DNA of 64,000 nt, taken from Kribbella solani. Its GTDB lineage: Bacteria; Actinomycetota; Actinomycetes; Propionibacteriales; Kribbellaceae. The notes under the pieces were generated by a model. That model worked only from the letters and a program-made list of their open reading frames with translations. It made no database searches and was not told where the DNA came from. Both the position numbers and the translations under genes were made by a program. The stretch is taken from positions 5,890,001 to 5,954,000 of the forward strand of contig NZ_JACHNF010000001.1 of NCBI RefSeq assembly GCF_014205295.1. The letters are read 5' to 3'. Numbering within the stretch: the stretch's first letter is position 1; each line of letters opens with the position of its first letter. Positions 8,301 to 37,674 of this stretch are shown one piece after another.

Positions 8301-9392
8301 GTGGGTACGCCGATCGTCCGCGCCGAGGCCTGGCTGGTCGACCTCGAGGTGGAAACCGTCCGGACCGATGCCGTGCAGGCGTTCCTCAAGCAGGAGACCA
8401 TCTTCGTCGAGCTCGCGACCGCCGACGGGCTGACCGGCGTCGGCTACTCGTACACGATCGGCACCGGCGGCACCTCCGTACTCGCGCTGCTCCGCGATCA
8501 CCTGCTGCCACGACTGGTCGGTACGGATGCGCGCAACGTCGAGGCGCTGTGGTCGGACCTGTTCTGGTCGACGCACGCGACAACCGTGGGCGCGATCACC
8601 TCGCTGGCGCTGGCGGCCGTCGACACCGCGCTGTGGGACCTGCGTTGTCTGCGAGCGGACGAGCCGTTGTGGCGGCTGGCCGGCGGCTATCGGCAGCAGG
8701 TGCCGTTGTACGACACCGAAGGCGGCTGGTTGCAGCTGGCAACGGACGAGCTGGTCGCCGGTGCGCTCGCGTCGCAGCGGGCCGGCTGGTCAGGGGTGAA
8801 GCTCAAGGTCGGAAAACCCCACGTACACGAGGATCTGGAGCGGCTTCGCGCGGTTCGGGACGCGGTCGGTCCGGCGATGGACATCATGGTCGACGCCAAC
8901 CAGTCGATGACGTACGCCGAAGCGCGGCGGCGGGCGGCGGCGTACGAGACCGTGGACCTGACCTGGTTCGAGGAGCCGTTGCCGGCCGATGACGTGACCG
9001 GGCATGTCCGGCTGTCGGAGTCGACGTCGATTCCGATCGCGGTGGGGGAGTCGTTGTACTCGGTGTCGCAGTTCCGCGAGTACGTTGCCGCCGGAGGTGC
9101 CGGGATCGTCCAGGTCGATGTGGCGCGGATCGGTGGCATCACGCCGTGGTTGAAGGTGGCGCATCTGGCCGAGGCGTTCAATCTCGAGGTGTGTCCGCAT
9201 TTCCTGATGGAGTTGCATGTGAGCCTGACCGCTGCCGTACCCAACGGCCGGTACGTCGAGCACATTCCGCAGTTGCGGGCGATCACGTCGACCGAGCTGG
9301 CTATCGTCGACGGGCACGCGGTCGCACCGGACGTACCCGGTCTCGGTATCGACTGGAACCGGGACGCGATCGACGACCGCAGGGTCGGCTGA
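8301..9392 (+). CDS. mandelate racemase/muconate-lactonising (enolase superfamily) sugar-acid dehydratase
   Basis: A 363-aa protein, GTG 8301 with GGGAGGA upstream. It has the capping N-terminal domain and a TIM barrel with all enolase-superfamily landmarks: K167-x-K169 (VKLKVGK), metal ligands D198 (VDAN), E224 (FEEP) and E250 (VGES), and the D273/H300 dyad (QVDVARIGG, CPHFLMELH). These catalyse proton abstraction next to a carboxylate and dehydration to a 2-keto-3-deoxy acid. With the hydrolase and lactonase here, L-fuconate or L-rhamnonate is a likely substrate, but specificity is not decided by sequence. It is followed at 30 bp by the amidohydrolase. Confidence 0.82.
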   Translation: MGTPIVRAEAWLVDLEVETVRTDAVQAFLKQETIFVELATADGLTGVGYSYTIGTGGTSVLALLRDHLLPRLVGTDARNVEALWSDLFWSTHATTVGAITSLALAAVDTALWDLRCLRADEPLWRLAGGYRQQVPLYDTEGGWLQLATDELVAGALASQRAGWSGVKLKVGKPHVHEDLERLRAVRDAVGPAMDIMVDANQSMTYAEARRRAAAYETVDLTWFEEPLPADDVTGHVRLSESTSIPIAVGESLYSVSQFREYVAAGGAGIVQVDVARIGGITPWLKVAHLAEAFNLEVCPHFLMELHVSLTAAVPNGRYVEHIPQLRAITSTELAIVDGHAVAPDVPGLGIDWNRDAIDDRRVG

Positions 9393-28077: not shown

Positions 28078-28113
28078 CTTGACACCTAAAATGACCAAGT
28101 GATCTGATCACTT
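28078..28113 (+). promoter_or_regulatory. promoter and FadR-type operator of the sugar-acid cluster
   Basis: TTGACA (28079-28084) and TAAAAT (28087-28092) are promoter-like elements in an AT-rich patch. AAGTGATC-T-GATCACTT (28097-28113) is a perfect odd palindrome ending 2 bp before the first ATG. Its core TGATCTGATCA is of the TG.TC.GA.CA type bound by FCD-class GntR proteins. One is encoded second in the same operon (29228), so autorepression is likely. The palindrome occupies the place of a Shine-Dalgarno sequence. Confidence 0.65.
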
Positions 28114-28115
28114 TC

Positions 28116-29231
28116 ATGAAACGGCCACTGGTTGCGGTTGTCGCGTTGTCTCTTACGGCAGCGGGTCTCGCTGTCCCCGCCGCGTCCGCGGCGCCGGCGA
28201 GCCCGGCGAGCTGTGCCGCGGTGCAGACGAACTGGACCGCGAAGACCACCCCGCACGCCGCGCCCGAGGGGTTGCTGAACTCCTACAGCAACACCGGGAA
28301 GGGCTGGACCGGCGCGGACAGCACGTACTCCGTCCCGCTCTCCGGCGGTCGGACGGCGTGGATCTTCTCCGACACTTTCCTCGGCCCGGTGAACGCGGAC
28401 GGCACCCGTCCCAAGACCGCGCCGTTCGTCAACAACTCCTTCGTCATCCAGCGCGGTACCCAGCTGAGGACGGTCACCGGCGGTACGGCGAGCAACCCCA
28501 CCGCACTGGTGCCGCCGCCCAGCAACGGCTGGTACTGGTTCGGCGCCGCGCAGACGAGCAAGGCCGGCAAGAACCTCGATGTGGTCGCGCTGCGGTTCGA
28601 GAAGACCGGCACCGGTCAGTGGGACTGGCGCTGGGCCAGCAACTACCTGGCCCGGTTCGACAGCAAGACGTTCAAGCTGAAGAGCCTCACCCCGCTCCCG
28701 TCCGCTGCGAACGTGCAGTGGTCCGGCTGGCTGCTGCGCGACCGCGGCTACACCTACGTGTACGGCGTGGAGGACCTCGGCGCATCGAAGTACCAGCACG
28801 TGGCCCGCGTACGCGGTGACGACCTGTCCGCGAAGCAGTGGGAGTACTGGACGGGCTCCGGCTGGTCCGCCGACGAGGCCGCGTCCGCTCGAGTGACCGA
28901 CGGTGTCGCCAACGAGCACAGTGTCACTCGCTGGGGCGACGGCTACCTGATGGTCACGCACAACACCAAGGAGCTCTTCAGCAAGAGCGTTCTCGGGTAC
29001 TTCTCCTGCTCGCCGACCGGCCCGTGGGTGAAGCCGGTGGAGCTGTACCAGACCCCTGAGACCGGCGGGAACATCATCACCTACAACTCACACGAGCACC
29101 CGGACCTGCGGCGCGGCAACTCGCTGCTGGTGAGCTACAACGTCAACAGCCTGGTCAGCGACGAGCTGTACGGCGACGTGAGCATCTACCGCCCGCGGTT
29201 CATCTCGGTGTCACTGGTCGCGGCCAAGTGA
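28116..29231 (+). CDS. secreted beta-propeller-like protein (DUF4185/DUF5005 type), possible glycoside hydrolase
   Basis: A 371-aa protein starting ATG 28116. A Sec signal peptide covers residues 1-26, cleaved after ASA-A. The mature part has repeated blade-like strands, for example GRTAWIFSDTFLG, NGWYWFGAAQT, WSGWLLRDRGYTYVYGVED and NEHSVTRWGDGYLMVTHNT, as in GH43/DUF4185-type propellers; catalytic residues cannot be assigned. As the first gene of an uptake and catabolism operon it probably acts outside the cell on the polymer or glycoside whose products the transporter imports. Its stop overlaps the regulator GTG. Confidence 0.68.
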   Translation: MKRPLVAVVALSLTAAGLAVPAASAAPASPASCAAVQTNWTAKTTPHAAPEGLLNSYSNTGKGWTGADSTYSVPLSGGRTAWIFSDTFLGPVNADGTRPKTAPFVNNSFVIQRGTQLRTVTGGTASNPTALVPPPSNGWYWFGAAQTSKAGKNLDVVALRFEKTGTGQWDWRWASNYLARFDSKTFKLKSLTPLPSAANVQWSGWLLRDRGYTYVYGVEDLGASKYQHVARVRGDDLSAKQWEYWTGSGWSADEAASARVTDGVANEHSVTRWGDGYLMVTHNTKELFSKSVLGYFSCSPTGPWVKPVELYQTPETGGNIITYNSHEHPDLRRGNSLLVSYNVNSLVSDELYGDVSIYRPRFISVSLVAAK

Positions 29232-29935
29232 ACGCGTCGGGAGGCGTCGTACGCCGGAGTCTGCTGGATGATCTGGCGACGTCCATGCTCACTCTGATCG
29301 CGGAGCGGAAGCTGTCGCCCGGTGACCAGTTCGAGGCGGTGCGGTCGCTGGCGGAGCGGTTCAAGGTCGCCGTACCGACGGTCCGGGAGGCACTCCGCCG
29401 GCTGGAGGCGACCGGTGCGGTGGAGCTCCGGCACGGCTCCGGTGTGTACGTCGGACCGAACGTCGGCCGGCTTGTACTGGCCAACCCGCTCGCGCTGGAA
29501 CCCAGTGCGGACCGTCTGGTCGAGCTGCTCCAGGCACGTGCGCTGATCGAGCCACCGGTGGCCGCACTGGCCGCCAAGACGCGCGGCGAGGCGGCGCTGG
29601 AACAGATGGCAACGGACCTCGCCACGGCGGCCGAGCTGATCGCATCCGGCGACCACGCGGAGCTGGCCGAGGTGAACATGGACTTCCACCGCTCACTGGC
29701 CCTGGCGTCCGGCAACGCGACTCTGGCCGAGGTGGTCGAGTCCGTGACTGTCGTGAACGCCCGGGAACAGCTGGAGATCCTGCACATCCACGGCGACCGC
29801 CAGGCAGACCTGGACGAGCACCACGCGATCTACGAGGCGATCCGGTCCGGCGACGCCGACCTGGCCGAGCTACTCACCCGCGAGCACCTGGACGGCGTAC
29901 TGGCCGTCATCAACGACCGATTTCAGCACCCCTGA
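29228..29935 (+). CDS. FadR-type GntR regulator of the sugar-acid cluster
   Basis: A 235-aa regulator with GTG 29228 overlapping the upstream stop (GTGA). The winged helix reads LLDDLATSMLTLIAERKLSPGDQF and LAERFKVAVPTVREALRRLEATGAVELRHGSG; the FCD domain has the metal-binding pattern (MDFHRSLALASGN, DEHHAIYEAIRSGD, REHLDGVL). It lies between the secreted protein and the transporter genes and likely represses the whole operon through the palindrome at 28097-28113. The inducer is probably a sugar acid or uronide. Confidence 0.85.
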   Translation: MNASGGVVRRSLLDDLATSMLTLIAERKLSPGDQFEAVRSLAERFKVAVPTVREALRRLEATGAVELRHGSGVYVGPNVGRLVLANPLALEPSADRLVELLQARALIEPPVAALAAKTRGEAALEQMATDLATAAELIASGDHAELAEVNMDFHRSLALASGNATLAEVVESVTVVNAREQLEILHIHGDRQADLDEHHAIYEAIRSGDADLAELLTREHLDGVLAVINDRFQHP

Positions 29936-29953
29936 GCTGGAAGGACGCAACAC

Positions 29954-31234
29954 ATGCAACGCATCTCCAAAGGCAAGGCGTTCACCGCGCTCGCGGTGGT
30001 CGGAGCCCTCGCGCTGTCGGCCTGTGGTGGCGGCGCCAAACCCGGCAAGGCCACCGAGGACAAGCCGGTCGACTCGCTGAAGTTCTACAACGACAAGGGT
30101 GGCTGGAAGGACGCGTTCACCCAGGTCGGGGCGGCCAGCAAGAAGGACATCGGCGTCGGCATGGAACCGGTCGGGTACTCGGACGCGAACACGTACACCG
30201 CGTTCATCCGGTCCTCGTTCCGGACCAAGGAGAAGGCCGACCTGTTCAGCTGGCACACCGGCAAGGAGCTTCAGGATCTGGTGGACCAGAAGCTCGTCGC
30301 CGAGACCACCGACCAGTGGACGAAGGCGGTTGCTGACGGCAACGTACCGGAGCAGCTGAAGCAGTACTTCACCTTCGACGGCAAGCAGTACTGCGTACCG
30401 CTGAACGCCGGGTACTGGGTGATGTACTACAACAAGGCGGTCTTCAAGAAGGCCGGGATCACCGAGACGCCGAAGAGCTGGGCCGAGCTGACCCAGGTGG
30501 CGGACAAGGTGAAGGCGACCGGCGTGAAGCCGTTCTACCAGACCAACATCCTGTTCTCGTTCGTCTGGTTCGAGACGCTGCTGGCCGGCAAGGACCCGGA
30601 CCTGTACGACCAGCTGGCGGCCGGCAAGGCGAAGTGGACCGACCCGGGCGTGGTCGAGGTGATGAACGAGTGGAAGAAGATGATCGACGCCGGGTACTTC
30701 AGTGACCCGGGCGCGAAGACCGAGCCGCAGGCGCAGCTGAAGAACGGCGACGTCGCGATGATCAACTTCGGTACCTGGTTCAGCGGCAACCTGAACACGC
30801 TGAAGATGAAGCCCGGCACCGACTACGACTTCTTCGTCATCCCGAACGTCAACCCGGCGCTGCCGAAGACGTCGATGATCTTCGAGACCGGTCCGGTCTG
30901 TTCGGCCGCGGCCAGTGACCACGCGTCCACCGTGAAGAAGTGGACCGACTGGTGGCTCACCCCGCAGGCGCAGACCGCCTGGGCGAACTCGCGCGGCGAC
31001 CTGTCGTTCAACCCGAAGGCGGAGGTCAAGGACCCGGGCCTGTCGAAGCTGAACAAGGACGTCGGCGGTGACGGGTACCGGCTGATCAACCGCTGGTTCG
31101 AGGCGACGCCGGTACCGGTCGCGACCAAGGCGCTGGAGGTGTTCGGCGCGTTCGTGACCAAGCCGGGTGACCCGATGCCGGGCCTGCAGAAGATCCAGGC
31201 CGAGGCGGACGCGTACTGGGCCAAGCAGAAGTGA
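29954..31234 (+). CDS. sugar ABC transporter substrate-binding lipoprotein (family 1)
   Basis: A 426-aa protein, ATG 29954 with GGAAGGA upstream. Lipoprotein signal with LSAC box (Cys24). The mature part is a family 1 extracellular solute-binding protein: KQYCVPLNAGYWVMYYNKAVFKKAGI, TPKSWAEL, NGDVAMINFGTWFSGN and a C-terminal NRWFEATP segment; aromatic residues that could stack on sugar rings are abundant. It catches the sugar outside the membrane and hands it to the two permeases that follow, overlapping the first by 4 bp. Confidence 0.88.
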   Translation: MQRISKGKAFTALAVVGALALSACGGGAKPGKATEDKPVDSLKFYNDKGGWKDAFTQVGAASKKDIGVGMEPVGYSDANTYTAFIRSSFRTKEKADLFSWHTGKELQDLVDQKLVAETTDQWTKAVADGNVPEQLKQYFTFDGKQYCVPLNAGYWVMYYNKAVFKKAGITETPKSWAELTQVADKVKATGVKPFYQTNILFSFVWFETLLAGKDPDLYDQLAAGKAKWTDPGVVEVMNEWKKMIDAGYFSDPGAKTEPQAQLKNGDVAMINFGTWFSGNLNTLKMKPGTDYDFFVIPNVNPALPKTSMIFETGPVCSAAASDHASTVKKWTDWWLTPQAQTAWANSRGDLSFNPKAEVKDPGLSKLNKDVGGDGYRLINRWFEATPVPVATKALEVFGAFVTKPGDPMPGLQKIQAEADAYWAKQK

Positions 31235-32118
31235 GAAACCGAGCAGCAGACCGCACCGGCGCCCGTTTGGCGCCGGTGTTCGGCCTGCCCGCGGCAGCGG
31301 TCGTGGCCGTGCTGCTGTACATCCCGTTCCTGTGGACGACGTACATCAGCTTCACCAACTACGACGGGCTCGCCTCACCTGTCTGGGCCGGGCTGGCCAA
31401 CTACAAGGCGATGTTCAGCGACCCGGACCTGACCGGTGCGCTGCTGAACACCCTGCTGTGGGTGGTCGGTCTGGTCACGCTGCCGGTGGCTCTCGGCCTG
31501 CTGGTCGCCGTGCTGACCTACGGACACAAGTGGGGTACGTGGCTGCGGCTGCCGTTCCTGCTGCCGTACGCGATCTCCGGTGTAGCGGTTGGTGTCATCT
31601 GGGGCTTCGTACTGCAACCGGATGGTGCACTGGGTCAGGTACTGGGATTCTTCGGGCTACCGGGGGCACATGCCGGCTGGCTGCAGGCAGGTCCTGGCAA
31701 CACGCTGATGATGATCGTCGCGGTCACCTGGCAGGCAGCCGGAGTGAACGCGTTGCTGTTCGTCGTGGGCCTGCAGTCCATCCCCGGCGAACCGCTGGAA
31801 GCCGCACGGCTGGACGGCGCGGAGGGGTTCAGCCTGTTCCGGTACCACCTCTGGCCGCAGCTCCGGCCGATCACCACCGTGGTCATCGGGTTGTCCATCG
31901 TGGCAAGTCTCAAGACGTTCGATGTCGTCTGGGTGATGACCCAGGGCGGTCCGGGTACGTCGTCGGAGACGCTGGCGTTGTCGATGTACAAGGAGACGTT
32001 CGTGCTGAACGACTACGGTCAGGGCGCGGCGATCGCGCTGTTCCTCAGCGTGGTCACGTTCGCGGCGTCGATCCTCTACCTGCGCTACCAGTTGGGGGAC
32101 TCGCGTGAGCAAGGTTAA
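31231..32118 (+). CDS. sugar ABC transporter permease (MalF-type)
   Basis: A 295-aa permease; GTG 31231 overlaps the binding-protein stop. Six membrane segments are seen (for example VFGLPAAAVVAVLLYIPFLW and LNTLLWVVGLVTLPVALGL), with the EAA loop EAARLDGAEGFSLFRYHLWPQLRP that docks the ATPase. It pairs with the next permease to form the channel. No ATPase gene is present in the cluster, so a shared MsiK-like ATPase elsewhere is expected, as is usual in actinomycetes. Confidence 0.88.
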   Translation: MRNRAADRTGARLAPVFGLPAAAVVAVLLYIPFLWTTYISFTNYDGLASPVWAGLANYKAMFSDPDLTGALLNTLLWVVGLVTLPVALGLLVAVLTYGHKWGTWLRLPFLLPYAISGVAVGVIWGFVLQPDGALGQVLGFFGLPGAHAGWLQAGPGNTLMMIVAVTWQAAGVNALLFVVGLQSIPGEPLEAARLDGAEGFSLFRYHLWPQLRPITTVVIGLSIVASLKTFDVVWVMTQGGPGTSSETLALSMYKETFVLNDYGQGAAIALFLSVVTFAASILYLRYQLGDSREQG

Positions 32119-32914
32119 GACAGGCGTACTGCTCGTCCTCGGGCTGATCTGGCTGGCGCCGATCTACCTGCTGCTGGTGAACGCGTCGAAGAGCATCGAC
32201 GGGTACGACGCCAAGACGGTGTGGAAACCTGGCGGGTTCTCGCTGTTCACCAACTTCGGCGACGCGTGGAACAAGGCCGCGCTCGGCGAAACCCTGGTCG
32301 CGACGACGATGTACAGCGTGATCGCTCCGGTGCTCGCGGTGCTGATCGGCGCGGCGGTCGGGTACGCGATCGTCGTACTCCGGCTGAAGCACGGCTTCCT
32401 GTGGTTCGTGTTCATCTTCGGTGGCACGATCTTTCCGCTGCAGATGGTGCTGATGCCGCTGTTCACCGGGTACGCCGACACCGGGCTGTACGACACCCGG
32501 GTCGGCATGATCATCGTGTACACCGCGATCAGCGTGCCGTTCTCCGCGTTCGTGATGCGCAACTTCTTCACCGGGATCGCGCGCAGTGTGTTCGAGGCGG
32601 CGATCGTGGACGGCGGTGGGCTGTTCCGGATCTTCCGCAGCATCTACCTGCCGATGGCGGGCTCCGCGCTGGCCGCGATCTTCATCCTGCAGGCGACGTT
32701 CATCTGGAACGACCTGCTGCTCGGCCTGACCTTGAGCCAGTCCGACTCGGTCCGTCCGATCATGCCGGCGCTGACCGGTCTGCAGAGTACGTACGGTGGC
32801 GCGGCGCTGCCGACCGTACTGGCCGGTGGACTGCTGGTCTCGCTACCTACCGTGATCCTTTTCCTTGCCGCCCAACGCTTTTTCTCCCGGGGCCTCGCCC
32901 TGGGCCAGTTCTGA
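32105..32914 (+). CDS. sugar ABC transporter permease (MalG-type)
   Basis: A 269-aa permease from GTG 32105, overlapping the previous gene by 14 bp. Six membrane segments start with VLLVLGLIWLAPIYLLLVNA; the coupling loop reads EAAIVDGGGLFRIFRSIYLPMAGSALA. It ends with the basic-aromatic AAQRFFSRGLALGQF typical of CUT1-family MalG proteins, where it contacts the ATPase. It forms the second half of the importer. Confidence 0.88.
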   Translation: MSKVKTGVLLVLGLIWLAPIYLLLVNASKSIDGYDAKTVWKPGGFSLFTNFGDAWNKAALGETLVATTMYSVIAPVLAVLIGAAVGYAIVVLRLKHGFLWFVFIFGGTIFPLQMVLMPLFTGYADTGLYDTRVGMIIVYTAISVPFSAFVMRNFFTGIARSVFEAAIVDGGGLFRIFRSIYLPMAGSALAAIFILQATFIWNDLLLGLTLSQSDSVRPIMPALTGLQSTYGGAALPTVLAGGLLVSLPTVILFLAAQRFFSRGLALGQF

Positions 32915-32924
32915 GAGGACGTGT

Positions 32925-33680
32925 ATGAGTAGCCGCACAGTCGTGGTCACCGGTGGTGCTGCCGGGATCGGACGGGGTGCTGTGGAACGGTTCGTTGCCG
33001 CTGGTGACAAGGTGTTCGCGCTGGATCGCGACGCCGACGCGCTGGCCGCCCTGGGCGACCAGGTGACCGGTGTGACCGTGGACGTGGCGGACCGGGCTGC
33101 CCTGGCCGCCGCGGCCGAGCAGATCGGGCCGATCGACGCCCTGGTCTGTGCCGCGGGCGTCCAGCGCTACGGAACCGTGGTGGACACACCGAGCGCCGTG
33201 TACGACGAGGTGATGGCGGTGAACGTCGGTGGGGTGTTCTTCGCCTGCCAGGCATTCGTACCGAAACTGCCACGAGGCGGGAGCGTTGTAGTAGTGGCAT
33301 CCGTGCAGGCGTACGCGGCGCAGACCGGCGTCGCGGCGTACTCGATGGGCAAGGGCGCACTGCTCAGCCTCGTACGGGCAATGGCTGTTGACCACGCCGC
33401 CGACGGGATTCGCGTCAACGCGGTCTGCCCGGGTTCGGTGGACACGCCGATGTTGCGGACGTCCGCGGCGCAGTTCGCCGGTGACCGTACGACCGACGAG
33501 GTGGTCGCGGAGTGGGGCCGGTCGCATCCGCTCGGCCGCGTGGCCACACCGGAAGAAGTTGCCGAGGTCATCCATTTCCTGTCCTCGCCGGCGGCGTCGT
33601 TCGTCACCGGTGCTGACGTGAAGGTGGACGGCGGTCTGACCGCCGGCCTGCCTGTAGTACTGCCGGAGGACGCGAAGTGA
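32925..33680 (+). CDS. short-chain dehydrogenase/reductase of the sugar-acid cluster
   Basis: A 251-aa SDR from ATG 32925, preceded by GAGAGGA. NAD(P) motif TGGAAGIG at 9-16, the Asp at the end of beta-2 (FALDRD) favouring NAD, NVGG at 100-103 in place of NNAG, catalytic S126, Y139 and K143. It ends with the usual [19 protein letters not shown]. In this operon it probably oxidises a sugar or sugar acid, or reduces a keto-sugar, next to the dehydratase that overlaps its stop. Confidence 0.85.
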
Positions 33681-34891
33681 AGATCGTCGACATCCGCGCC
33701 ACCACGGTGACGATGCCGTTGGAGGCGCCGCTGCGGCACAGTAACGGGGCGCACTGGGGACGCTTCGTACGGACCGTGGTGGAAGTAGAGGCCGACAACG
33801 GGCTGATCGGCCTGGGCGAGATGGGTGGTGGCGGCCAGAGCGCGGAGGCCGCGGTCACGGGCCTGAAGCCGTACCTGCTGGGGCATGACCCGGCTCGTAC
33901 CGAGGCACTGCGCTGGATGCTCGCCAACCCGACCGCCAGCCTGTACAACAACCGTACGCAGCTGCTGGCCGCGATCGAGTTCGCGTGCCTGGACCTGCAG
34001 GGGCGCGAGCTTGGTGTACCGGTGCATGAGCTGCTCGGCGGCAAGGTACGGGACAAGGTGCCGTTCGCGAGCTACCTGTTCTTCCGGCACCCGAACGAGG
34101 ACGGCACCGGGGAGATCCGGACAGCCGAGCAGTTGGTGGCGCATGCGCGCGAGCTGGTCGATCAGCACGGTTTCAGCGTGCACAAGCTCAAGGGCGGGGT
34201 GTTTCCGCCGGACTACGAGCGGGAGTGCTTCCGCGCGCTCGCGGAGGCGTTTCCCGGTCACCGGGTGCGGTTCGACCCGAACGGCGCGTTCAGCGTCGAG
34301 GAGGCGATCCGGTTCGCCCGGGGGATCGAGGACCTCGACAACGACTACCTGGAGGACCCGACCTGGGGCCTGAACGGGATGCGCCGGGTCCGCGAGAACA
34401 CGCCGATCCCGCTCGCTACGAACACCGTGGTGGTGAACTTCGAGCAGCTCGCGGCCAACGTACGCGACCCGGCCGTCGACGTGATCCTGCTGGACACCAC
34501 GTTCTGGGGCGGTATCCGGCCGTGCATCAAGGCGGCCGGCGTCTGCGAGACGTTCCAGCTGGGCGTCGCGGTGCACTCGTCCGGCGAGCTCGGCATCCAG
34601 CTGGCGACGATGCTGCACCTGGGCGCCGTCGTACCGAACCTTTCCTTCGCCGCGGACGCGCACTACCACCACTTGCGCGACGACCTGATCGTCGGCGGCA
34701 AGCTGCCGTACGTCGACGGGGCGATCGCGGTACCTGAGGCACCGGGCCTCGGTGTCGAGCTGGATCGCGACAAGCTGGCCGAGTACGCCGAGCTGTTCCG
34801 CGAGCTCGGCCCGTACCCGTACGACCGCGACCCGGCCCGCCCGGACTGGTACCCCCTGCTCCCGAACACCGATTGGGCCGATCCGTCATGA
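33677..34891 (+). CDS. glucarate-dehydratase-like enolase-superfamily enzyme
   Basis: A 404-aa protein with GTG or ATG overlap to the SDR (start 33677). The barrel carries K170-x-K172 (VHKLKGG), metal ligands D200 (FDPNGA), E226 (YLEDP) and N249 (LATNT), and H300 (AVHSSGELG). Asn as the third metal ligand and the KLKGG and HSSGE motifs mark the glucarate dehydratase subgroup, which removes water from aldaric acids such as D-glucarate. The N-terminal [13 protein letters not shown] loop, which sets specificity, should be compared with true GlucD. It makes a 5-keto-4-deoxy acid, but no downstream aldolase is in the cluster. Confidence 0.82.
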
Positions 34892-36921
34892 CCATCCCGA
34901 CCAGCGCCGACCTGGCCAGCGACGTTCTCACCCATACGTACGACGACATGTTCAACCCGCCCGGGCTGACGAACTTCCTGGGTACGGCGCAGGTCGACCA
35001 TGACGTGATGGCGATCCGCAGTGTGAACTTCCCGCCGTACTCGCACGGCGACACCATCACCGGTCAGCTGTACGTCGACGGACGGCTCGCCCGCTCGTAC
35101 GGCGGCACGGTGGAGGTGGTGTGGCGACCGGACTGCGTCATCCGGAGCACGACCGTCGACGGACTGGACCTGCGGACGACCACTGCGTGCGCACCTGGCC
35201 GCCCTGCCGTCGTTGTCGAGCTGGAGGTCACTGGCGCACCAGGGCGTACTGTCCAGCTGGGTTTCGCGCTTGAGAGCACCGCGACTCGCTCGGACAGCGG
35301 CTGGTTGCGTCCGGAGCCGCCGTCCGAACCGAACACGCTGTCCGCGCAGGGCGAGCGTGTAGTGGGCACAGGTGCTTCCGGGTCCGCTGTCAGCCTGCAG
35401 GGCTTGGACGTGGCGGCGACGGTTGACCGGTCGATGCTGGAGACGACAGTCGAGCTGGATGAGTCCGGCAAAGGGCAGTTGTCGTACGTACACGTGCTGT
35501 CCGGCTCGCTGGAGGAGGCGACCGAGCACTTCGACGTATGCGTTGCCGACGTACCCGCCGTGATCACCGTGGCCGAGGGCGTGTGGGACATGGCACTCGC
35601 CGACGCGTTCGACCCGGACGGTGACGGGTTCAGCGGTTCGCTACCGGTGCTGGAGACCTCCAACGAGGCGCTGCAGAAGCTGTACTGGTGGGGCGTGCTC
35701 GGTGTCATCTGGTTCCGCCGGGACAACCCGGCCAGCGTGCTGGGGCGTACGTACGACACGCTGATGCCGCGGTACTGGCAGACGACCACGTTCATCTGGG
35801 ACTACAGCCTGTCCGCGCTGACCCATGCACTGCTCGACCCGGAGCCGATGCGGAAGCACATCGAGCACTGGATCGACCTGGACATCCACAAGCACTTCGG
35901 TACCGAGTGGCTCACCGGTGGACCGGTCGGCTACTGGTACTCGGTCAACGACTTCGCCATGACCCGGCTGGTACGGGACTACGTGCGCTTCACCGGCGAT
36001 GAGTCGTTCCTGGACACTACGGTCGGCCCGAAGGCGGTCGGCGACCACGTACACGACTGGGCGACCGCGTGGCGCGGTCTGCGTGGTGAGCACGCGCTGG
36101 CCGACTACGGCGACATCGACAACTTGCTGGAGTGCGTCAGCAGCTACGTACACGAGGTGGCGAGCTTCAATGCTGCCAACGTGTGGTGCATGCGTGTGGC
36201 CGCGGAGCTCGCGGACCGCTCCGGTGACTCGGACCGGGCCGCACAGCTCCGCAAGGAGGCCTCCGAGCAGGCAGGTCATGTCAACGAGCTGTACGTCGAG
36301 GGCAAGGGCTTCTGGCATGCAAGGCAACCGGACGGCACGCTCGTACCGGTCCGGCACTGCTACGACTTCAACCTCATCGGTACGACCATTCCGGACGACC
36401 TGTCCGAGTCGCAGTGCGCGGAGATGGTGTCGTTCTTCCAGGCCGAGTTGCAGACGCCGACCTGGATGCGCGCACTGTCGCCGTACGACGCCAACGCCGG
36501 CTTCAGCGTCCGCCCCGACCACCAGTGGAACGGCGCGTACCCGGCGTGGCCGGCTGACGCGGCGCGTGCACTCTTCGCACTCGGCCGTGGTGACGTGGCA
36601 CTCGACTGGCTGCCCGGTCTGGCCAAAACCGCCAACCAGGGACCCTGTGGCCAAGCACACTTCGTCGAAGAGGCACAGCCGGCAATGGCCGGTGGTGCAC
36701 AGAAATCGCCGCCACAGTTCCCGTACCTGATCGACTGGTCCTGCTCGTCGTCCGGCGCCTGGGTCAGCCTCGTACTGGAAGGCATCTTTGGCATCGAGGT
36801 AGCCCTGGACGGCACCGTCACCGCGAACCCACAGGTAGCGGCCCTCGACCCCAACGCCCGCCTAACCGGCCTCCGCGTCGGCGACTCCACCTACACCGTC
36901 ACCGCCACCGGCCTCGCCTGA
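34888..36921 (+). CDS. cytoplasmic alpha/alpha-barrel glycosidase-like protein (MGH1/GH63-like)
   Basis: A 677-aa protein from ATG 34888, overlapping the dehydratase stop (ATGA). It has no signal peptide. Residues 1-240 form a beta-rich N-terminal domain, and 250-650 an (alpha/alpha)6 barrel with [69 protein letters not shown] and [25 protein letters not shown], like glycosidases of clans GH-G/GH-L. Candidate acids are the Asp in IWDYS and the Glu in HFVEEAQ. It may split an imported oligosaccharide so that its uronic or aldonic unit enters the SDR/dehydratase route. It is the last gene before a long hairpin. Confidence 0.7.
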
Positions 36922-36956
36922 CAAACCCTCCACCCGCGGGGGCATCCCCTCAACTA

Positions 36957-36992
36957 CAGGGTTGCCCCTCGAAATTCGAGGGGGCAACCCTG
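36957..36992. terminator. 17-bp palindromic hairpin, copy B of a repeated palindrome
   Basis: CAGGGTTGCCCCTCGAA at 36957-36973 pairs with TTCGAG to CCCTG at 36975-36992 with one bulged G. It follows the glycosidase stop by 35 bp and precedes the stop of a convergent regulator gene by 16 bp, so it can end both transcripts. The same core is found at 56290-56338. Confidence 0.7.
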
Positions 36993-37008
36993 CGGTTCAG
37001 GGGGCGAG

Positions 37009-37674
37009 TCAACTCGGGTATGCGATGGCCTCAAGTAACGATTCCTCAGCGCCGGCCAGGTGACGACGGAGCTCGGCCACGCACTCGTCCAATTCGCCGC
37101 GTTCCAGCAACCGGATGAGCTTGCGGTGCGACGCGACCTGCTGGCGGGCGTCCTGGCGGAGCGCGTCCACCCGGGCGAGCGCCAGCCGGGCCTCGCCGGT
37201 GACCGCGTCGGCGGTGGCGATCAGCCGCTCGCTGCCGGTCAGCGCGACCAGGCTGCGGTGGATGGCGAGGTGGGTCTCGGTCATCGCCTCCGGGTCGGCG
37301 CCGTCCTTGGCGGTCGCGGCGAACACCCGCATCGCCTCTCGTACCCGTTCCCGGGCGGCCTCATCGGCGTCGAACCAGGCCCGGATACCCGCTGACTCCA
37401 GCACCATCCGGGCCCGGCAGATGTCCGCCACCGCGGCCGGGTGCAGGATCGCGACGCTGACGCCCTTGTTCGGCTCCCGGACCGCGAGGCCCTCGGTGAC
37501 CAGCATGGTCATCGCCTCCCGGATCGTGCTCCGGGCGACCCCGAGCGCCTCGGCCAGCGGCTGCTCACGCAACGGCGTACCAGGCTCCAGGTCACCGGCG
37601 AACAGGGCAGCGCGGAGCGCGTCGACCACCCGGTCCACCGTGGTCGAGCGGTCCACCCGCAGCCGTTCGTACAT
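37009..37674 (-). CDS. FadR-type GntR transcriptional regulator
   Basis: A 221-aa regulator from ATG 37674. The winged helix (DRVVDALRAALFAGDLEPG, LAEALGVARSTIREAMTMLVTEGLAVREPNKG) is followed by an FCD domain with ETHLAIHRSLVALTGSERL and SHRKLIRLLERGELDE. The frame stays open far upstream, but coding sense and the family start both support ATG 37674. It is convergent with the sugar-acid cluster and divergent from the cell-wall hydrolase gene, so either could be its target. Confidence 0.82.
   Translation of the reverse strand: MYERLRVDRSTTVDRVVDALRAALFAGDLEPGTPLREQPLAEALGVARSTIREAMTMLVTEGLAVREPNKGVSVAILHPAAVADICRARMVLESAGIRAWFDADEAARERVREAMRVFAATAKDGADPEAMTETHLAIHRSLVALTGSERLIATADAVTGEARLALARVDALRQDARQQVASHRKLIRLLERGELDECVAELRRHLAGAEESLLEAIAYPS

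Follow-up and report, generated by a model that had tools for sequence, protein, structure and literature searches.

A conserved eight-gene operon of Kribbella solani that probably serves the uptake and oxidative breakdown of a D-mannose-containing glycan

Which sugar, and which polymer carrying it, is served by an operon that joins a secreted enzyme and a sugar importer to a dehydrogenase, a dehydratase and an intracellular enzyme outside the Pfam and NCBIfam families? In the 64,000-nucleotide window of the Kribbella solani genome (7.85 Mb) analysed here, positions 5890001-5954000 of contig C1, eight co-directional open reading frames (ORFs) on the plus strand fill positions 28116-36921. Named A to H in order, they encode a propeller-type protein (A), a regulator (B), the three proteins of an importer (C, D and E), a short-chain dehydrogenase/reductase (SDR; F), an enolase-superfamily dehydratase (G) and a cytoplasmic enzyme of predicted (alpha/alpha)6 fold (H). 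A sequence-only reading had seen in them a pathway for a uronic or aldaric unit. The computational analysis reported here leads to a different answer: that this is a real, conserved and locally regulated glycan-utilisation operon is clear, and we give a probability of roughly two in three to its serving the uptake and burning of a D-mannose-containing glycan by an oxidative mannose route, which is the best explanation of what is seen.

The genes are tightly packed, with 4-bp overlaps at A/B, C/D, F/G and G/H and a 14-bp overlap at D/E, and with gaps of 18 bp between B and C and 10 bp between E and F; the starts chosen for F and H fall inside longer ORFs of the ORF list. This gene order is kept for all eight genes in 25 of the 26 other Kribbella loci fetched, usually with unchanged flanking neighbours, and the remaining locus (L063; loci are cited by number where they must be told apart) starts at H, where its contig ends. 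Together with one operator and a terminal hairpin, described below, this conserved neighbourhood, for which the sequence-only reading had proposed a search, bears out its eight-gene operon and its several 4-bp overlaps. Most of its family assignments stand as well: in Pfam, B is a FadR-type regulator with GntR and FCD domains and a probable operator, C, D and E form a CUT1 importer for which the operon encodes no ATPase, so that one must be borrowed, and F is an SDR.

The sugar is indicated by F and G and by the company they keep. The nearest solved relatives of F are 3vtz (5.8e-51) and 2dtd/2dte/2dtx (1.5e-41), whose names are glucose 1-dehydrogenase or similar; we take all of these to be Thermoplasma enzymes, 2dtd and 2dtx presumably being AldT of T. 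acidophilum. According to the part of PMC6901390 available to us, AldT oxidises mannose and its gene adjoins a mannonate dehydratase gene. F is 61%, 60% and 46% identical to the SDRs beside G in L086, L089 and L139, respectively, and 33-35% identical to the mannonate oxidoreductase of L159. At eight catalytic positions G (K170, K172, D200, N202, E226, N249, D273, H300) aligns with Escherichia coli GudD (K205, K207, D235, N237, E260, N289, D313, H339), and these positions are identical in all nine aligned sequences, the window included. By this alignment we presume that K170 and K172 form the KxK motif, that D200, E226 and N249 are the metal ligands and that D273 and H300 form the Asp-His dyad. 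The asparagine ligand to which the sequence-only reading had drawn attention is therefore present as N249, and it is not unusual, since GudD has N289, which we take to be a metal ligand too, at the same position.

It is the neighbourhoods of the relatives of G, F and H that point to D-mannonate. On an actinobacterial contig of 16 kb (L159), a G orthologue (67% identity) is the only dehydratase recognised, a statement that covers the contig and for which ORFs outside the Pfam scan were judged by eye; its companions are the tagaturonate epimerase UxaE (461 bits), the glucuronate isomerase UxaC (504 bits, cut-off 387), an SDR D-mannonate oxidoreductase (375 bits, cut-off 281), a pfkB protein resembling 2-keto-3-deoxygluconate (KDG) kinase and a DapA-like protein. 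Because the hexuronate route encoded there needs a mannonate dehydratase, this locus supports mannonate as the substrate of G. In Salinispora fenicalii (L086), G and H are separated by three genes of their own strand, for an AXE1 esterase, a 2-keto-3-deoxy-6-phosphogluconate (KDPG) aldolase of family PF01081 (110 bits) and a pfkB kinase (161 bits), and the presence of this aldolase and kinase inside the operon makes KDG the probable product of G. Tessaracoccus (L121/L176) carries an F-like SDR (47% identical to F and 34% to the mannonate oxidoreductase of L159) directly before UxuA (PF03786, 264 bits), a mannonate dehydratase unrelated to G, and this pair stands beside ROK, the protein M described below, LacI, A, C, D, E, H and a true ManA (166 bits, cut-off 116).

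The aldolase and kinase genes whose lack the sequence-only reading had remarked on are indeed missing from the operon, and the Salinispora genes, with similar ones elsewhere in Kribbella, explain their absence. The K. solani genome has two PF01081 aldolase genes, at about 6.72 Mb (above the Eda cut-off) and about 7.59 Mb (just below it), each near a KDG-kinase-like gene and the latter pair near a galactonate dehydratase, and MalK-type ATPase genes are present at other places. Since aldolase, kinase and ATPase are thus encoded elsewhere in the genome, the pathway need not be incomplete for want of them in the operon.

A further line of evidence comes from a second module that takes the place of F and G beside H. 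Its mark is M, a protein of about 620 residues, usually near a ROK kinase, whose profile matches the mannose-6-phosphate isomerase 1qwr (4.9e-13) and one member of which has a sub-threshold match to the ManA model. Across 80 loci, 27 have F and G without M, 45 have M without the F+G pair, one (L139) has both and seven, all near contig ends, have neither; where at least 8 kb is available on each side of H (60 loci), the split is 23 with F+G, 37 with M and none with both or neither. A gene was scored as present from 30% tblastn coverage upwards, and for D, E, F, G and N identity had to reach 40% as well; L055 and L143 are the same strain, and the ROK ORF of L121, which overlaps M, is seen in the reading of that locus and is not counted in the module table. 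A kinase and a ManA-like protein swapping with a dehydrogenase and a dehydratase fit one aldose, mannose, and the two modules are most simply read as consuming the same sugar. A search for M in the genome of the window came back empty, a result that by itself is not proof of absence. The locus with both modules (L139, 1261-18156) is an Ignavibacteriales contig from a metagenome-assembled genome (MAG) and carries two DUF4185 proteins, H, an esterase, ROK, M, an SDR and a G that is 67% identical to that of the window across phyla, which suggests horizontal transfer. If true, this swap of an oxidative for a phosphorylative module, with depolymerase and importer kept, would clearly exemplify cassette exchange in catabolic operons.

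H itself falls outside the sequence families of both databases searched. It matches no Pfam or NCBIfam family at E <= 0.001, and up to E 10 Pfam offers only a weak TPR_4 (0.33); the sequence model of glycoside hydrolase (GH) family GH94 (PF17167) does not match it, and a search of the whole K. solani genome with PF17167 likewise found no match, which says nothing on H. A single-sequence search of PDB sequences gave no match at E <= 1, and the H profile matched PDB sequences at E 0.3 or worse, the only glycan enzyme among them being the beta-glycan phosphorylase 4zle (0.75, non-significant). A structure predicted from 46 sequences (pLDDT 90.3, pTM 0.92) has an N-terminal beta-sandwich and an (alpha/alpha)6 barrel; it supersedes a low-confidence model built on 10 close sequences (pLDDT 63.9) and the fold searches made with that one. 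The cytoplasmic (alpha/alpha)6 glycosidase of the sequence-only reading is in keeping with this predicted fold, and the check for a match to a characterised glycosidase family, which that reading had called for, brought up neither a Pfam or NCBIfam family nor a convincing match among PDB sequences. With Foldseek, the model resembles cellobiose phosphorylase (2e-21, TM score 0.70, root-mean-square deviation (rmsd) 7.4). VIA-align places it close to fungal rhamnosidases (Rha-2: Z 30.6, rmsd 2.7, 395 aligned residues) and to chitobiose and cellobiose phosphorylases (Z 30.1, rmsd 4.1-4.5, 611-615 aligned), with GH116 and GH63 structures next; Z runs from about 25 to 31 across the four groups at 8-16% identity. 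A family that the VIA-align list lacks is not excluded by this, and the GH family numbers of some matched chains are our own assumption. D305, D317, D332, D406, E415, D493, D534 and D544 are invariant in an alignment of 50 H sequences. From the predicted model we read H as a putative separate family inside the (alpha/alpha)6 superfamily, and the open-licence literature searched describes neither the operon nor the H family.

Relatives of H are found well beyond Kribbella. Within the order, H is present in 31 of the 196 sampled genomes, two of them with weak matches (E 1.7e-5 and 2.8e-4), including 27 of the 38 Kribbella genomes listed (K. solani counted). A scan with the H alignment of one genome per species, covering 84,980 species, gave 116 confirmed relatives, of which the best 80 were kept; among these, the Actinomycetota are represented by Kribbella, Salinispora, Jiangellaceae, Microbacteriaceae, Glycomycetaceae, Propionibacteriaceae and others, and relatives outside that phylum occur in MAGs of Ignavibacteriota, Balneolota and Bacteroidota.

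At the other end of the operon, A is predicted to be a secreted propeller of the DUF4185/GH183 type, much as the sequence-only reading had described it. Pfam DUF4185 matches at 44 bits (gathering cut-off 39.5), though its best stretch spans no more than profile positions 156-287 of 309, a further match to DUF5005 stays under its cut-off, and the N-terminus looks by eye like a signal peptide. The A profile matches 4hbs (2e-27) and the endo-D-arabinanase EndoMA1 (8hhv; 9.6e-16). D68, D86 (18 apart) and E267 are invariant in 12 sequences; E267 aligns with E243 of EndoMA1, and D68 and D86 correspond to D33 and D51 by their spacing and by profile alignment to Ignavibacteria DUF4185 proteins, the alignment to 8hhv missing the Asp pair. 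D33, D51 and E243 of EndoMA1 were shown to be essential in the available portion of PMC10509167. In Ignavibacteria, an intracellular-looking DUF4185 relative (108 bits; profile-profile probability 99.9 with A) lies directly before H. A appears to be split into two frames in Kribbella pittospori (L055 2080-3191, equal to L143 3084-4195), where the matches to the other seven genes are almost full-length. The K. solani genome has a second, much stronger DUF4185 protein (272.6 bits) at 12881-13984 of L169 (C1 1748000-1767900), whose neighbours are binding-protein-like and permease-like ORFs, identified by eye, and a dehydratase that among NCBIfam models scores highest with ManD (374 bits, cut-off 550); the association of DUF4185 with a dehydratase thus occurs at a second place in the same genome.

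Taken together, the operon may be envisioned to work as follows. Secreted A would cut the polymer, C, D and E would import the oligosaccharides with an ATPase from elsewhere, and H would free the monosaccharide in the cytoplasm. F would then convert D-mannose to mannonolactone, which may open spontaneously or by another enzyme, G would convert D-mannonate to KDG, and a KDG kinase and a KDPG aldolase encoded elsewhere would yield pyruvate and glyceraldehyde-3-phosphate; B would repress the operon through the single palindrome until an inducer appears. The order of cutting outside, import, cutting inside, oxidation and dehydration is that of the sequence-only reading, and the protein families, the fold of H and the operon structure support it. 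For the sugar, the genomic context gives good support to D-mannose. For the polymer the hints are weak: esterase genes near several relatives (L086, L101 and L139 by Pfam scan or reading, L122 by eye) suggest an acylated one, and in a Pfam tally of 93 of the 150 listed neighbour proteins, not exhaustive, no glycosidase family recurs among the 25 families shown out of 112.

Several other accounts can be set against the same evidence. The uronic or aldaric unit of the sequence-only reading, with F oxidising a uronic acid and G dehydrating an aldaric acid, draws on the fact that glucarate dehydratase (TIGR03247) is the best-scoring NCBIfam model for G and that the catalytic positions match GudD, but the score of 167.2 bits is far under the equivalog cut-off of 828.7. 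That reading had proposed looking for the full set of GlucD specificity residues, and three are changed: N27, T103 and R422 of GudD, which we take to be distal-end residues, R422 presumably holding the distal carboxylate, become H21, L89 and Y382 in G, while H32, Y150 and H368 are kept, the C-terminal part of this alignment being uncertain. The KDPG aldolase and pfkB kinase of L086 are also a misfit for an aldarate product, and with the neighbourhoods pointing to D-mannonate from D-mannose we regard the aldarate pathway as highly improbable. The logic of the oxidative route could also apply to another hexose, either D-glucose, which would make G a gluconate dehydratase, or one of the less common aldoses, for instance allose or talose. 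The glucose dehydrogenase names of the solved relatives of F would suit this, as would the origin of KDG from gluconate as well and the fact that the glucokinase family model gives the highest score, below cut-off, for two of the three ROK kinases tested. Glucose, however, needs no ManA-like isomerase, and UxuA and the hexuronate cluster specify mannonate, and we judge another hexose to be very unlikely.

A system for D-arabinan would have A as an endo-D-arabinofuranase, H as an exo-D-arabinofuranosidase, F as a D-arabinose dehydrogenase and G as a D-arabinonate dehydratase, the food being arabinan of mycobacterial or related cell walls. We consider this quite unlikely, even though A has the EndoMA1 catalytic spacing, characterised members of its type cut D-arabinan, and the D-arabinan cluster of Microbacterium has the same general layout, as far as the accessible text of PMC10509167 goes; the predicted fold of H, too, resembles the exo-beta-D-arabinofuranosidase ExoMA2 (Z 24.9, rmsd 6.9, 578 residues). 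For the sugar-holding Arg198 of EndoMA1 no clear Arg is seen at the corresponding place in A, though the alignment is gapped there and K225 and R231, both conserved, are close by; in K. solani the two genes of DUF2961 (GH172), at 2.67 and 3.87 Mb, are far from the operon; the KDPG-aldolase and UxuA neighbours act on six-carbon acids; and the alternative module consists of ROK and a ManA-like protein, not of the isomerase and kinase that the same partial source reports for D-arabinose. A last alternative concerns H alone, which as a phosphorylase would release mannose-1-phosphate and a shorter chain. Its best full-length fold matches, over some 615 residues, are cellobiose and chitobiose phosphorylases, and the sole glycan-enzyme match of its profile, non-significant as it is, is a phosphorylase too. 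Set against these are rhamnosidase, GH116 and GH63 hydrolases that score nearly as high, the lack of a GH94 Pfam match for H and an operon without a sugar-1-phosphate mutase gene, and we think a phosphorylase unlikely.

The proposed route from a mannose glycan to KDG has points that weigh against it as well. All enzyme activities are ones that we infer, the mannose pathway from gene neighbourhoods only. The best NCBIfam model for F, aldose dehydrogenase NF005007, gives 206.9 bits against a cut-off of 341, and D-mannonate dehydratase ManD (NF043051) gives G 90.4 bits against a cut-off of 550, so that a mannonate dehydratase role of G would be a matter of function and not of membership in that family. 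Contexts of G are mixed, with a lactonase in L157, a DUF4432 protein in L155 (and, by eye, in L156) and an HpaI-like aldolase, below cut-off, in L158, and both kinases beside the KDPG aldolases of K. solani score under the KDG-kinase cut-offs. In the tree of 46 H sequences, which has long deep branches and an uncertain root, the F+G label needs only two changes, which means that the loci cannot be counted as independent events. L121 and L125 combine an F-like SDR with M, and the swap is thus strict for the F+G pair and not for F. The Kribbella operon has no esterase, and characterised relatives of A cleave D-arabinan, not mannan, in what could be consulted of PMC10115798 and PMC10509167. Finally, A was not found in the fetched flanks of ten Jiangellaceae loci (L087-L095 and L136) that carry B to H, where the depolymerase is missing, different or located elsewhere; with its split in one Kribbella strain, this means that A may be dispensable.

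The regulation of the operon appears to be local. The palindrome AAGTGATCTGATCACTT, which the sequence-only reading had noticed at the operon front, is probably the operator of B: at up to one mismatch it occurs once in the genome, a reversed-pattern control giving none. Its core TGATCnGATCA precedes A in 25 of 25 other Kribbella loci inspected and is absent before A in Tessaracoccus L065. Compared with the window, identity is 41% over the 60 bp upstream of the palindrome, 62% over the 60 bp downstream and 93% over its own 17 bp, the last figure being high partly by construction, since the segments were anchored on the motif. In all 11 Salinispora and Jiangellaceae loci, GTGATNNNATCAC stands before the operon at up to one mismatch (six exact, five with one mismatch) and nowhere else in them, while in L097-L134 (n=38, mostly of the M type) the exact core is absent in 36 and present in two. 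A consensus promoter scan found no full sigma-70-type site at the operon front. Downstream of H, the 86-nt stretch 36925-37010 has a minimum free energy of -52.3 kcal/mol against -34.3 +/- 3.3 in shuffles (z = -5.42); the hairpin in it is unlisted by the terminator scan, which requires a T-run. Coordinates are collected in Table 1.

Table 1. Genes and probable or possible signals of the operon, in window coordinates; domain scores are from Pfam
Feature	Position	Strand	Assignment
Possible -35 element	28079-28084	+	TTGACA hexamer, seen by eye; weak
Probable operator	28097-28113		palindrome AAGTGATCTGATCACTT, just before the start codon of A
A	28116-29231	+	predicted secreted propeller-type glycosidase, DUF4185 (GH183) superfamily
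B	29228-29935	+	GntR/FCD (FadR-type) regulator; GntR 54.6 bits, FCD 84.8 bits
C	29954-31234	+	sugar-binding protein of a CUT1-type ABC importer; SBP_bac_8 105 bits, SBP_bac_1 93 bits
D	31231-32118	+	importer permease 1; BPD_transp_1 54.9 bits
E	32105-32914	+	importer permease 2; BPD_transp_1 38.5 bits
F	32925-33680	+	SDR aldose dehydrogenase, proposed D-mannose dehydrogenase
G	33677-34891	+	enolase-superfamily dehydratase (glucarate-dehydratase subgroup), proposed D-mannonate dehydratase; MR_MLE N and C domains, MR_MLE_C 200 bits
H	34888-36921	+	cytoplasmic beta-sandwich and (alpha/alpha)6 enzyme without sequence family, proposed exo-glycosidase or phosphorylase
Probable shared terminator	36957-36992		hairpin between convergent genes, without a T-run; from fold energy

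The convergent GntR-type gene at 37012-37674 (minus strand, by eye) was considered as a member of the system and is treated as a neighbour: it lies beside H only in Kribbella, a 30% match on an Embleya plasmid aside. It adjoins H in nearly all Kribbella loci and lies 4 kb off in L060. Elsewhere in the window, at 8403-9371, there is a second enolase-superfamily stretch with 34% identity to G over residues 34-367. A plasmid search returned five records with H relatives, at 31-34% identity among the matches listed; the 5.7 Mb linear plasmid record of Embleya (L067, 7932-15267) has a distant H relative (34%) with genes for an F-like SDR (52%), an SMP-30 lactonase and a DUF4432 protein upstream of it.

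What these observations offer is a testable function for a glycosidase-like family outside Pfam and NCBIfam, and a predicted substrate for enolase-superfamily relatives of G whose structures are named only provisionally (4it1, 'putative'; 3vdg, 'probable glucarate dehydratase'; 3vc5, 'mandelate racemase/muconate lactonizing protein'). The GH183/DUF4185 superfamily, known for endo-D-arabinanases in the parts of the literature found, may include enzymes for another glycan. A bolder proposal, which we advance tentatively and lean somewhat against, is that H founds a new family of mannoside-specific glycosidases or phosphorylases, that the A-type DUF4185 proteins of these operons are mannan cutters related to the endo-D-arabinanases, and that both belong to a system of several phyla (Actinomycetota, Ignavibacteriota, Balneolota, Bacteroidota) with exchangeable oxidative and phosphorylative mannose cassettes, in which G is an unrecognised class of D-mannonate dehydratase. 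Relative to the literature searched, H as a separate family and G as a mannonate dehydratase would be new; the general layout is already known.

Among known systems, that layout is closest to the D-arabinan locus of Microbacterium arabinogalactanolyticum (GH183, GH172, GH116), which, in the part of PMC10509167 at hand, likewise has a secreted DUF4185 enzyme, an SBP_bac_8-type importer, a cytoplasmic exo-enzyme with beta-sandwich and (alpha/alpha)6 fold and adjoining catabolic genes. The Kribbella operon differs in lacking GH172 and GH116, in having an H of another sequence family and in its catabolic genes, an SDR and a dehydratase here, or ROK and a ManA-like protein in relatives, against an isomerase and a kinase there. 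With GH94, GH78, GH116 and GH63 enzymes H shares the N-terminal beta-sandwich and the (alpha/alpha)6 barrel, at about equal distance to several of these families and without their Pfam or NCBIfam signatures. The predicted steps from mannan through mannose, mannonate and KDG to KDPG are shared with beta-mannan degradation in the haloarchaeon Natronoglomus, which, in the text available from PMC10963439, uses GH5, GH26 and GH2 enzymes, families absent from the Kribbella operon, together with genes annotated as mannonate dehydratases. The sequence-only reading knew of no named pathway with exactly this set of genes, and we found none either, although the oxidative part resembles the mannose route of AldT and ManD proposed for Thermoplasma acidophilum in the accessible part of PMC6901390. 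In both, the gene of an SDR adjoins that of a mannonate dehydratase, the role proposed for G, and mannonate and KDG are the proposed intermediates. G differs in belonging by score to the glucarate-dehydratase subgroup (90 bits against the ManD cut-off of 550, a comparison with the model and not with the Thermoplasma enzyme), and the Kribbella pair differs in being built into a glycan-utilisation operon with its own importer and depolymerase.

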